Shown here in pieces: positions 15,571 to 18,306 of a DNA stretch of 36,166 bases. Position 1 is the first letter of the stretch. Each line of letters begins with the position of its first letter. The stretch covers positions 55,619 through 91,784 of the forward strand of contig JARGNO010000010.1 of the NCBI GenBank assembly GCA_029213165.1. Direction: 5' to 3'. The position numbers were made by a program, and so were the translations under genes. This DNA is from Minwuia sp. GTDB taxonomy: Bacteria; Pseudomonadota; Alphaproteobacteria; Minwuiales; Minwuiaceae. A model generated the notes under the pieces. It saw nothing but the letters and a program-made list of their open reading frames with translations. It did not search any database and was not told the origin of the DNA.

Positions 15571-15739
15571 GTCTGCAATTCCGATGTTCTGACCATGCTC
15601 ATTCCGGTTCTATCCGACGTTCCGCGGGACCACAACAGGCGCTGACGTCACGCGCGGCGGGATTGATTCACCTGCGGGGAGTGTGTAGTCCCCTTCTGAA
15701 GTAACCGCGTCTTCATTGATTGCTGAAAACCTGCGTCCC

Positions 15740-16570
15740 ATGCCCACTGCAATTGCATCCACTGGCCCTGACCGCGAATGGTTCCGCCGCATGTGCGGAA
15801 CCGTGGCGATGCTGCTCACACTTGGTGGCGGCAGTGCCCTTGCCGGGTCTGACCTGAAGGCTGGTGGAACACTGCAGCTTGTGGCCCCGTTGGAGCAGTC
15901 GGTCCCCTCCATTGGTCGTATTCACGGTGCGGACGCTCCGGCCCTGATCGATCTTCTGACACTGACACCGCGGGATGGCGGGCAGATCGGCGGCGGCCTC
16001 AATCTGTCGGTTGAACCCACCGGCACCCAGGACAGCGTGCCCCGGGTTGGCGTCGACTTCACCGATAGGGCACTTGGCGTCGATTTCACGGTATTCGGCA
16101 GCGTCGGCGACACGGCGCAGCGCTATGGCGTTTCCTCTCTCGCCCCGGCCGAGCCTGTCTCCCGCTTCGCGCTTTCAGCCGCTTCGGTGGATCCGACATC
16201 CGATCCCGAGCGTGGCAATGCCTGGCTGGTCGGTGGCCGCATCGGCTACGACGGTTTCTCCATCGGTGCCGATCTGGCGCAGGGGGACGATCTGAAGCTG
16301 GGCCGAATGCTGACGGACTATCGCCTTGGCATGAGCTATGCCGGCGCCAATTGGCAGGTCGGCCTGAAATACGTCCGCAGCCTGTCGGAGCGTGAGCAGC
16401 AGGCGCCCGACATCGCGGATGCGCTGGAGATCGGCGGTGCCTGGCAGCTCAACGGCTCCATCGGCCTGGTCGGTGGCATCCAGTTCTGGGACCAGGGGCC
16501 ATCCGCCGGTCTGGACAGCGAGGCCAACCGCGACGCCTTGATCTTCCTGGGCACCCGCATCCAGTTCTGA
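15740..16570 (+). CDS. Putative outer-membrane beta-barrel protein (porin-like)
   Basis: A 276-residue exported protein. An N-terminal signal (hydrophobic MCGTVAMLLTLGGGSALA) ends near A35/G36. The mature region has alternating strands (LNLSVEPTG, VGVDFTDRALGVDFTVFGSV, GYDGFSIGADLAQ, YRLGMSYAGANWQVGLKYV) and ends in Phe (GTRIQF), the usual outer-membrane barrel signature. It resembles Gram-negative porins in style but is short, and I cannot place it in a named family. The in-frame TTG at 15716 and the ATG at 15791, closest to the signal peptide, are alternatives to ATG 15740; none has a strong ribosome binding site. Divergent from the DUF3576 gene. Confidence 0.7.
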   Translation: MPTAIASTGPDREWFRRMCGTVAMLLTLGGGSALAGSDLKAGGTLQLVAPLEQSVPSIGRIHGADAPALIDLLTLTPRDGGQIGGGLNLSVEPTGTQDSVPRVGVDFTDRALGVDFTVFGSVGDTAQRYGVSSLAPAEPVSRFALSAASVDPTSDPERGNAWLVGGRIGYDGFSIGADLAQGDDLKLGRMLTDYRLGMSYAGANWQVGLKYVRSLSEREQQAPDIADALEIGGAWQLNGSIGLVGGIQFWDQGPSAGLDSEANRDALIFLGTRIQF

Positions 16571-16649
16571 ACCGGAAGCCGGCTGTTGGTATGCAGTCGG
16601 GCTTCGGCGAGTCATTTTGTCACAATAGGTATTGACTCTCGTCTTTGCG

Positions 16650-16677
16650 TTGACATTGACTGATTCGGCGCTAATTT
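16650..16677 (+). promoter_or_regulatory. Candidate promoter of the NYN leader
   Basis: TTGACA at 16650-16655 and TAATTT at 16672-16677, spaced 16 bases. It would start transcription near 16684, just before the hairpin leader. The -35 is perfect and the -10 weak. Confidence 0.35.
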
Positions 16678-16681
16678 GTGC

Positions 16682-16736
16682 GCCAGTAGCTCCCCACTGG
16701 ACTCGACTGGCAACGGTCCCCGGTGGGGTTTTTTTT
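16682..16736 (+). terminator. Structured leader with intrinsic terminator before the NYN gene
   Basis: CCCC-GGT-GGGG (16718-16728) followed by eight T (16729-16736) is an intrinsic terminator, possibly extended by CCCCAC (16692-16697) pairing with GTGGGG. Upstream, GCCAGT (16682-16687) can pair either with ACTGG (16696-16700) or ACTGGC (16706-16711). The T-run ends only 11 bases before the NYN start codon, so it may act as an attenuator of that gene, as the terminator of the barrel gene, or as the end of a short RNA of about 50 bases. Confidence 0.6.
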
Positions 16737-16747
16737 GAGCGATTTTT

Positions 16748-17374
16748 ATGCCGCAAATTGATTTAAAATTGAATGCGATGGCGTTCTTTGACGCTCAGAA
16801 CCTTTTTCAGCACGCAAAATCTGCATTCGGTCATCACCACCCGAATTTTGATCCGGTGAAATTGCATCAGGCCGTATGTAGAGAAATGGGATGGCGACCA
16901 ACCCTGACGAGATTCTATACAGGCATCCCTGATCCAAAGTTCAGCGAAATGTGGGCGGGATACTGGACCAGTCGCCTGCTCACACTGAAGCGACAAGGTG
17001 TCCATGTTACGACGCGATCATTGCGATATCGCGCCAAGAGCATGCCAGCGGTCGACGGTGGAACCGAAACCTTCCATGTGCCGCAGGAGAAAGGGATCGA
17101 TGTACGCATTGCGCTGGACCTTGTGAAATGTGCGCGGAAACGTGAGTTCGATGTGGCCCTGCTCTTCAGTCAGGATCAGGATCTCAATGAAGTTGTTGAC
17201 GAAGTGCGCGAGATTGCGAGGGAGCAGCAAAGGGAAATCCAAATCTGTTGCCCCTTTCCATATGGACCAGGGGCTTCTTACGGGAGAGGCATAGATCGTA
17301 CTGAATGGTTCCGAATGGACGAAGAATTCTATAACGCCTGCATTGATCCACGAGACTATCGGCCACGACGATAG
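16748..17374 (+). CDS. NYN-domain (PIN-like) putative ribonuclease
   Basis: A 208-residue protein with a NYN/PIN-like fold. The first strand is MAFFDAQNLF with Asp15. Later acidic residues expected in the metal site are Asp118 and Asp124 (GIDVRIALDLV) and SQDQD (141-145), where the family usually has a D.D or SGDSDF-type motif. NYN proteins are generally metal-dependent RNA nucleases; activity here is inferred. ATG 16748 has GAGCG upstream; Met11 at 16778 would start right at the domain but lacks a ribosome binding site. Base composition is more AT-rich than the flanking genes. No toxin-antitoxin partner is adjacent, so it appears to be a solitary accessory gene. Confidence 0.78.
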   Translation: MPQIDLKLNAMAFFDAQNLFQHAKSAFGHHHPNFDPVKLHQAVCREMGWRPTLTRFYTGIPDPKFSEMWAGYWTSRLLTLKRQGVHVTTRSLRYRAKSMPAVDGGTETFHVPQEKGIDVRIALDLVKCARKREFDVALLFSQDQDLNEVVDEVREIAREQQREIQICCPFPYGPGASYGRGIDRTEWFRMDEEFYNACIDPRDYRPRR

Positions 17375-17487
17375 CTCGGGATTCCTGATTTCCCGCAGCG
17401 CCATTTTGGCTGCAGGGATGGTTGCCCTTGCCCCCAGGCGCATCCTCGCCTAGTTGATGGCCGGGAACGGGAAGATGTCTCCCCGGA

Positions 17488-18306
17488 ATGACAGCGATAC
17501 GGAACCTTGCCATGGATCATCTCGACCGCCTGGAAAGCCAGAGCGTGTATATCTTCAGGGAGGCGTTCAACCGTCTCGGCCGCGTCGGCATGCTCTGGTC
17601 GCTGGGCAAGGACTCCAACGTGATGATCTGGCTGGCGCGCAAGGCCTTCCACGGTCATGTGCCGTTCCCCGTGATGCATGTCGATACGGAGAAGAAGTTC
17701 CCGGAGATGTACGAATTCCGGGACCGCTACATCAAGGAATGGAACCTGAACTTCCTCAGCGGCAAGTGCCCGCCGATCGAAGAGATGGACCCCAGCCTGC
17801 CGCCCGCCGCCCGCTCCGCCGCCCGCAAGACCGAGGGGCTGAAGAATTTCCTGGCCACCAATCCCTTTGACGGCATCTTTGCCGGAATCCGCCGCGACGA
17901 ACAGGCGACCCGCGCCAAGGAGCGCGTGTTCAGCCCGCGCGGGGCCACCGGCGCCTGGAACTTCCGCGACCAGCCGCCCGAGTTCTGGGACCAGTTCAAC
18001 ACCGACTTCCCTCCGGGCACCCATGTGCGCATCCACCCGCTGCTGCACTGGACCGAAATGGACATCTGGCTCTACACGCAGCGTGAGAACATTCCCGTCA
18101 TCGACCTGTATTTCGCCAGGAACGGCAAACGCTATCGCTCGCTGGGGGACAAGGACATCACCAATCCGGTGGACTCCAACGCCGAGACGCTGGACGAGAT
18201 CATCGAGGAACTGCGGACCACCAGGGTCTCCGAACGGTCCGGCCGGGCCATGGATCATGAGGCCGAGGACGCGTTCGAGCGTCTGCGCGCCGACGGCTAC
18301 ATGTAA
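17488..18306 (+). CDS. cysD: Sulfate adenylyltransferase subunit 2
   Basis: A 272-residue small subunit of ATP sulfurylase, which makes adenosine 5'-phosphosulfate (APS) from sulfate and ATP. The ATP-pyrophosphatase loop is SLGKDS (38-43). Family signatures HVDTEKKFPEMYEFRD (64-79), GIRRDEQATRAKER and the closing RSGRAMDHEAEDAFERL are present. Ser-Leu-Gly in the loop replaces the more common Ser-Gly/Ile-Gly. An alternative start at Met9 (17512) would give the usual MDHLDRLE beginning; ATG 17488 has CCCCGG-type weak upstream sequence. It is followed 12 bases later by cysN-cysC. Confidence 0.93.
   Translation: MTAIRNLAMDHLDRLESQSVYIFREAFNRLGRVGMLWSLGKDSNVMIWLARKAFHGHVPFPVMHVDTEKKFPEMYEFRDRYIKEWNLNFLSGKCPPIEEMDPSLPPAARSAARKTEGLKNFLATNPFDGIFAGIRRDEQATRAKERVFSPRGATGAWNFRDQPPEFWDQFNTDFPPGTHVRIHPLLHWTEMDIWLYTQRENIPVIDLYFARNGKRYRSLGDKDITNPVDSNAETLDEIIEELRTTRVSERSGRAMDHEAEDAFERLRADGYM

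Follow-up and report, generated by a model that had tools for sequence, protein, structure and literature searches.

According to the available part of its description, the AbiF/RCd22 system of C. difficile has one promoter that gives rise to a short RNA with an intrinsic terminator and to a longer read-through transcript, no promoter is predicted before the toxin gene, and the RNA neutralises the protein in cis and in trans (PMC12373285). Type III toxin-antitoxin (TA) systems (ToxIN, CptIN, TenpIN), as far as the accessible text describes them, likewise combine an endoribonuclease gene with an intrinsic terminator upstream, before which lie a promoter and an RNA (PMC5086642), and the accessible text on AvcID shows that RNA antitoxins pair with other enzymes too (PMC10511110). 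NYN-domain proteins have been described from a different angle. The CRISPR-associated NYN of Bacteroides fragilis is reported, in the portion of the source at hand, to cut RNA, to need D13 for this cleavage and to have a fold close to 2QIP, the NYN protein VPA0982 (PMC11346440); the enzyme belongs to a type III CRISPR system, and no leader RNA occurs in the available part of that description (PMC11346440). HEC-09, a candidate defence protein, is a protein-only PADLOC model that does not contain an RNA part, and Hma-embedded candidates are mentioned in the available extract of PMC12988326. Among the matches listed in a search of the NYN and HEC literature in open PMC (as distinct from subscription papers and preprints), no title or abstract start dealt with a module of the kind described below.

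The window analysed here, i.e., the whole stretch of 36,166 nucleotides from Minwuia sp., carries such an NYN gene with an intrinsic-terminator-like site, recognised from sequence and predicted fold, directly 5' of it, as type III TA systems have before the toxin gene. The relevant features are as follows:

16571-17424, plus strand: whole acquired module (putative promoter, hairpin RNA and NYN gene), delimited by the empty site in congeners
16650-16655, plus strand: TTGACA, the probable -35 box of a promoter specific to the RNA, from the TTGAC spacing across loci
16672-16677, plus strand: weak -10 box, perhaps TAATTT, read by eye in the window copy
16682-16687, plus strand: GCCAGT segment, complementary to 16696-16700 (ACTGG) or 16706-16711 (ACTGGC)
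16692-16728, plus strand: conserved hairpin, from fold, covariation and covariance-model searches
16692-16700/16720-16728, plus strand: outer helix of the hairpin fold, 9 bp
16701-16704/16719, plus strand: internal loop of the hairpin fold, 4x1, ACUC/C
16705-16709/16714-16718, plus strand: inner helix of the hairpin fold, 5 bp (GACUG-GCAA-CGGUC)
16710-16713, plus strand: GCAA loop of the hairpin fold
16729-16736, plus strand: T8 tract, which makes the intrinsic-terminator-like site complete (sequence and terminator scan)
16737-16747, plus strand: spacer of eleven bases between T8 and ATG, from the sequence
16748-17374, plus strand: gene of an NYN-domain ribonuclease of 208 aa (Pfam NYN, E 1.3e-7)

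The locus resembles AbiF/RCd22 (abiF RNA, Rfam RF03085), in so far as the accessible text describes that system, in the order of a promoter, a non-coding RNA ending in an intrinsic terminator and a promoterless toxin gene, and also in its setting, AbiF/RCd22 being located in a prophage and window-type modules in viral contigs. It differs in encoding an NYN instead of an Abi_2 protein and in that the abiF motif was not found here; moreover, RCd22 measures 88-132 nt and comprises two abiF motifs and a separate terminator in the part of its description available, whereas here one hairpin is both. The arrangement of type III TA systems is shared as well, but no tandem repeat array is present, no pseudoknot is evident and the NYN fold takes the place of ToxN. 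Only one hairpin was found between the TTGAC box and the NYN gene in the window and its subfamily, and the units of genus g159 (see below) lie at least 107-226 nt apart. Membership of the ToxN, CptN or TenpN families was not found either (Pfam NYN only; best fold match 2qip). The module thus belongs to neither AbiF/RCd22 nor type III TA, and the single hairpin without a tandem repeat array before NYN counts against its reading as an antitoxin module.

A preliminary description of this DNA had placed a terminator before the NYN gene. A GC-rich hairpin extending to 16728, followed by T8, eleven bases and the ATG at 16748, is indeed present, but the proposed stem CCCC-GGT-GGGG (4 bp) was not retained: the outer stem favoured in the predicted fold is CCCCACUGG/CCGGUGGGG (9 bp), around the ACUC/C loop and the inner hairpin. 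The fold of 16679-16736 was predicted at -23.8 kcal/mol (z -2.0; 7 of 200 shuffles equally good) and that of 16651-16748 at -34.4 kcal/mol (z -2.5; 2 of 200 equally good). In a loose terminator scan of 6 kb on both strands the five sites found were not significant against 3.7 (sd 2.0) in shuffles, so that the sequence alone was insufficient and comparison among relatives had to decide. The window had no Rfam match at the gathering score, and for 16560-16800 the single match up to E 1 was DUF2693-FD (E 0.97). Fourteen loci gave nine Rfam matches up to E 0.1, of which only three plasmid RNAI matches passed the gathering score.

The GCCAGT segment is, as had been noticed, complementary in sequence to two ACTGG segments, but the pairing is absent from both minimum-energy folds (16679-16736 and 16651-16748) and the segment is not conserved in relatives. 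For these reasons an attenuator with mutually exclusive terminator and antiterminator was rejected, and the attenuation by alternative hairpins suggested earlier is not supported: its GCCAGT partner is missing in relatives, and the probable transcription start, only about 5-12 nt 5' of the hairpin, leaves an antiterminator little space. Pairing of the NYN ribosome site with the RNA was also considered and set aside, because the GGGGG that might form pairs with CUCCCC is present in five loci (L002, L043, L015, L016, L039) and missing from the window and from L020.

The assignment of the gene behind the terminator to NYN was borne out, PF01936 (NYN) being the sole Pfam match of the 208-aa protein (32.6 bits against a cut-off of 24.2). 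D15, D118, D143 and D145 are intact in the window protein, and the first three are invariant among ten sequences. The active residues predicted for the B. fragilis enzyme, in the part of its description available, are D13, D118 and D143 against D15, D118 and D143 here, matched by position and not by superposition. An AlphaFold2 model (pLDDT 90) had 2qip as its best PDB match. By profile and conserved acidic site, the protein thus qualifies as an NYN ribonuclease (PF01936). It also matched the PADLOC HEC-09 model (PDLC04163) at 5e-10 and 37 bits, over residues 86-161 only and with no PADLOC cut-off given. Nine of ten further NYN proteins scanned matched HEC-09 at E <= 0.001, P0003 being the one without a match; the match is weak in the window's subfamily and strong in distant plasmid proteins (P0004, 1e-48; L098, 3e-40).

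The module is flanked by the upstream gene at 15716-16570 and by a PAPS-reductase-type (cysD-like) gene at 17488. The latter is present in all nine genomes of the family, while the NYN gene and its leader each occur in one of the nine, the window's own. Eight loci were compared with the window, of which four are closed sites: the counterparts of 16570 and 17425 are separated by 77 nt in L004 and L005 and by about 45-53 nt in L006 and L007. The flanking blocks of L008 and L009 are separated by other sequence of about 1 kb, and in L010 and L011 the upstream gene is missing from the stretch compared. By comparison with these four closed sites, what was acquired is the putative promoter, the hairpin and the NYN gene, and nothing else. 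The hairpin lies about 120 nt 3' of the upstream gene, as would an ordinary terminator of that gene that stands before NYN by chance; however, the counterparts of that gene in the four congeners, where the site is empty, have no hairpin, and the hairpin accompanies NYN in unrelated neighbourhoods, so this explanation was rejected as scarcely credible. The distribution of NYN matches is sporadic, with any match in 13 of 385 class genomes, and among 398 phylum genomes searched with a profile, the genome of the window was the sole one at E <= 1e-10.

Within the window's subfamily, the hairpin was found 9-61 nt 5' of the ORF in all 14 loci with a readable 5' end (window, L002, L014, L020, L021, L043-L046 and L048-L052), which lie in several unrelated neighbourhoods; an NYN gene without the RNA occurred in none of the 14. 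We refer to these loci as the proteobacterial clade. They are not independent, since L044, L046, L049 and L051 are close relatives. L002 is an Azoarcus MAG whose NYN (55% identity) has an in-frame stop, L014 is a Methylobacterium replicon with an NYN gene, and L020 and L021 are genomes of the window's class, the NYN of L021 being frameshifted. Ten viral contigs carry an NYN gene (L043-L052, with L046 and L047 alike). In two of the four inspected (L044, L050) the module separates the gene of the terminase large subunit from the portal gene; L045 has it near a capsid gene and L043 near an integrase. The viral loci were obtained with an alignment query, which gave 12 loci; P0001, the window protein, as sole query gave none in the viral scan, and phage records had no tblastn match for NYN. 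Duplicates of other loci (L047, L055-L059), C-terminal fragments with no 5' end (L028, L029) and remote loci in which the covariance model had no match (L030, L031, L053, L054) were omitted. The covariance model also had no match in L027, where NYN is broken into three pieces.

Poor conservation of the hairpins had been named in advance as a result that would refute the earlier interpretation, and the hairpin proved to be conserved, with compensatory changes. In an alignment of 14 sequences (on which RNAalifold was also run) 96.8% of the cells are paired, against 36-60% when the partners are slid by 1-3 columns, and both partners have changed in six pairs, where shuffles give 1.2. A further 25 copies were aligned manually, guided by the structure. 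Of the 198 outer-helix pairs in the 22 copies whose arms have 9+9 nt (leaving out L043, L045 and one L082 copy with unequal arms), 196 are intact, a value reached by none of 2000 arm swaps between sequences. The inner helix keeps 105 of 106 pairs; its length and sequence differ between copies, but its pairing is restored in almost all of them. After arm swaps, 92% of the outer and 77% of the inner helix pairs were formed on average. The compensatory changes and the conserved pairing place the hairpin beyond chance despite the weak terminator scan. In L014 the T tract is poor and the hairpin helix is retained, which suggests a role of the helix beyond termination; on the same reading, termination is not universal among the module copies.

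These data also bear on a "moron"-like insulator of expression, i.e., a terminator that silences a harmful gene as long as it is not overridden by strong transcription or by an antiterminator of a phage. The setting of the module among phage genes in L044, L050 and L045, as given above, would suit such a device. A mere terminator, however, needs no compensatory conservation of both helices, the window's chromosomal copy and the actinobacterial plasmid copies stand outside phage operons, and the closely spaced units described below have no NYN gene; we consider the insulator improbable.

Nineteen loci, 13 of the proteobacterial clade and six actinobacterial ones, extend far enough upstream to be compared, and in 15 of these a TTGAC sequence begins 41-48 nt 5' of the hairpin (42 nt in the window). 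By simple arithmetic (4^-5) the chance of TTGAC within eight positions is below 1% per locus. A consensus scan gave no sigma-70 site at the threshold used. Given the TTGAC spacing, transcription probably starts ~5-12 nt before the hairpin. A separate promoter between terminator and ATG was discarded for the window, whose 11 nt leave hardly any room; in the L044 group, with about 50 nt between hairpin and ORF, a promoter there is possible. This 50-nt gap (L044:1919-1969, L046:1929-1979, L049:1900-1949, L051:1907-1957) contains an ATGTTC..GACATGTTC element, which may be an operator in this viral subgroup. The earlier suggestion that the stretch encodes a small RNA and is read through into the nuclease gene agrees well with the near-fixed distance of TTGAC, the units without NYN and the compensatory changes.

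Among wider relatives, six actinobacterial plasmid homologues (L015, L016, L035, L036, L039 and L040) have a similar hairpin, which begins with GCTCC(C/T)C in five of them; L037, L038 and L041 have no hairpin-terminator by the criterion used. The proteobacterial model gave E 0.097 for L035 and E 0.29 for L040 and no match up to E 1 for the other four, and the putative homology of these hairpins is based on position and likeness. A terminator within 100 nt of the start passed the criterion in 19 of 23 homologues (the 14 subfamily and nine actinobacterial loci) against 5 of 45 control genes (Fisher 7e-9, computed on related, non-independent loci), the controls being genes from the same plasmid loci picked by availability and not at random. 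The starts used in these counts were 1 nt early for L021, 1983 instead of 1977 for L050, and 1531 or 1504 for L036. The NYN proteins of L022-L026 form a sister group marked by long C-terminal extensions (frames about 300-370 aa long; identity 38-42% in one search and 34-38% in another); these loci have no passing hairpin-terminator (0/5), and with them the count becomes 19 of 28.

Seven of ten distant plasmid NYN loci also passed the terminator criterion, with hairpins of other sequence 18-26 nt 5' of the start; with two near-identical loci merged the count is 6 of 9 (Fisher 1e-3 against the controls). All six of the ten that were scanned matched HEC-09 (L017, L019, L093, L094, L095, L098), and the small-plasmid Klebsiella NYN of L017 did so strongly (1e-48). 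The RNA motif GCGATTAAGTT recurs in three leaders, with two copies in L095, and a terminator-like hairpin comes after it (L093:690-797, Klebsiella IncR; L096:690-797, P. aeruginosa p4; L095:595-797, Klebsiella 5.4-kb plasmid); these leaders are a candidate for a second NYN-linked RNA family. In L017:1100-1230 (Klebsiella, 4.2 kb) and L018:460-595 (E. coli, 3.5 kb) the leader ends with AAAAAGGCCTGCATATGCAGGCCTTTTT about 20 nt 5' of NYN, and on the Phaeobacter plasmid pP18_h (L097:255-305) a long inverted repeat, nearly perfect (GTCTCTTAGCAACAACTG with its complement), lies 5' of NYN, with no T tract. This sample of loci points to a general architecture of non-coding RNA, terminator and NYN. Tentatively, and with more doubt than conviction, phage and plasmid NYN proteins including HEC-09 might be RNA-controlled toxins, each subfamily having its own structured RNA and terminator about 20 nt 5' of the gene. 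The window would then be a very compact form, in which one hairpin is RNA, antitoxin and terminator.

The hairpin was also found apart from NYN. The covariance model, whose matches to its 14 training sequences arise by construction, was run on the 385 class and 398 phylum genomes and matched 21 of the former (E <= 0.01) and 7 of the latter (E <= 0.001), G000 being in both sets. Seven different genomes reached at least 40 bits, of which G000, G311 and G278 hold NYN loci used in building the model; the remaining genomes, all below 34 bits, probably contain generic terminators. G362 has the hairpin with the first 29 NYN codons only, and G408 the hairpin with about seven codons that, by eye, resemble an NYN start. 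In G341 the hairpin lies 83 nt from a contig end and a C-terminal NYN fragment is on another contig, which leaves the state of this genome uncertain. G183, with three hairpins, is not among the genomes listed with an NYN match. When 22 model-hit loci (including those of G362, G341 and G408, and excluding G183) were compared with NYN by tblastn, only L061 (G362) matched. One of the G183 hairpins is directly 5' of an ORF whose first residues resemble the NYN of the related G278; this ORF has no Pfam match, and we take it to be methyltransferase-like from its NPPW motif. The promoter-hairpin unit can thus apparently serve a gene other than NYN.

In G278 the unit is present eleven times, spread over two contigs, and its loop is of two types (A and B). 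In L080 and L081 neighbouring units are 107-226 nt apart, too close for an NYN gene between them. In genus g159, TTGAC at 45-46 nt together with TATAAT was found in five of nine units (4/6 in L080 and 1/3 in L082), and the multiplication is partly due to segmental duplication together with hslV sequence. The units concerned lie beside hslV-like sequence (L080:3155-4447, L081:1-572, L082:2385-3117), one L082 unit being 5' of an ORF with the NPPW motif.

RNA without an intact NYN thus occurs in three genomes, and perhaps a fourth (G341). On these small numbers the order of loss appears to be that expected of a toxin and its antitoxin, and the units without NYN and the hairpins that outlive NYN would fit a trans-acting RNA better than a purely cis-acting attenuator. 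In an autogenous attenuator, the hairpin would be the target of NYN in its own nascent mRNA, and binding or cleavage would alter read-through or mRNA stability, so that the enzyme would set its own level and the short RNA would be a by-product. The position of the hairpin directly 5' of the gene in all 14 subfamily loci, a T tract that is mostly kept (the 19 of 23 homologues above) and the cutting of RNA by an NYN enzyme, as stated in the accessible text of PMC11346440, all suit this arrangement. Against it, closely spaced NYN-less units and hairpins surviving the loss of NYN would be useless to a purely cis device, there is little antiterminator room, and L014 has kept the helix while its T tract decayed. 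We regard autogenous control as unlikely, though worth keeping in mind. Alternatively, the RNA could be an active cofactor or trans-acting regulator instead of an inhibitor, either a small RNA with mRNA targets or a guide or sensor of NYN. A discrete conserved RNA that adjoins a nuclease, and multicopy units with two loop types in one genus, would be in keeping with this; the alignments, however, have neither a long conserved unpaired seed nor a variable guide segment, and such a role appears quite improbable.

We are highly confident that the hairpin RNA and NYN form one co-mobile ncRNA-nuclease module. As the hairpin travels with NYN between distant bacteria, viruses and plasmids, the two are probably one unit, in which the RNA probably checks the enzyme. 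Whether this check takes the form of neutralisation, in analogy to type III TA or AbiF/RCd22, is in our judgement evenly poised. The sporadic occurrence, the location in viruses and on plasmids, the match to the defence candidate HEC-09 and the RNA cleavage by an NYN enzyme with corresponding catalytic residues speak for it as well; against it stand the homologues that have no passing hairpin-terminator, the broken copy L027 that the model does not match, the poor T tract of L014, the G183 unit 5' of another ORF and the segmental part of the g159 multiplication. Taking as starting point what was observed, namely the hairpin, its covariation, the TTGAC spacing, the co-inheritance, the empty site and the intact catalytic residues, we infer a course of events that runs from the start of transcription, through its termination and read-through in the living cell, to the binding of the RNA to the protein, the toxicity and its trigger. 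RNA polymerase would start just 5' of the hairpin, and most transcripts would end at the hairpin and T tract, as RNAs with a length of roughly 45-60 nt. A smaller share would read through into the NYN mRNA, which termination would thereby limit, and the RNA would consequently be in excess over the nuclease. The RNA would most likely bind NYN via the conserved helices and the internal loop and keep it inactive; if fresh RNA were no longer supplied (e.g., after a phage has stopped transcription in the host), the nuclease would be released.

The mobile NYN nucleases, known as proteins only in the libraries used, thereby gain a conserved RNA partner that has no Rfam family at the gathering score. 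Testing an NYN protein such as HEC-09 for toxicity or for defence against phages without its leader would omit a likely regulator. With a length of about 850 bp, the module is directly testable. If the RNA neutralises NYN, control by RNA antitoxins would have arisen with a further nuclease fold besides the ToxN-like and Abi_2 proteins.
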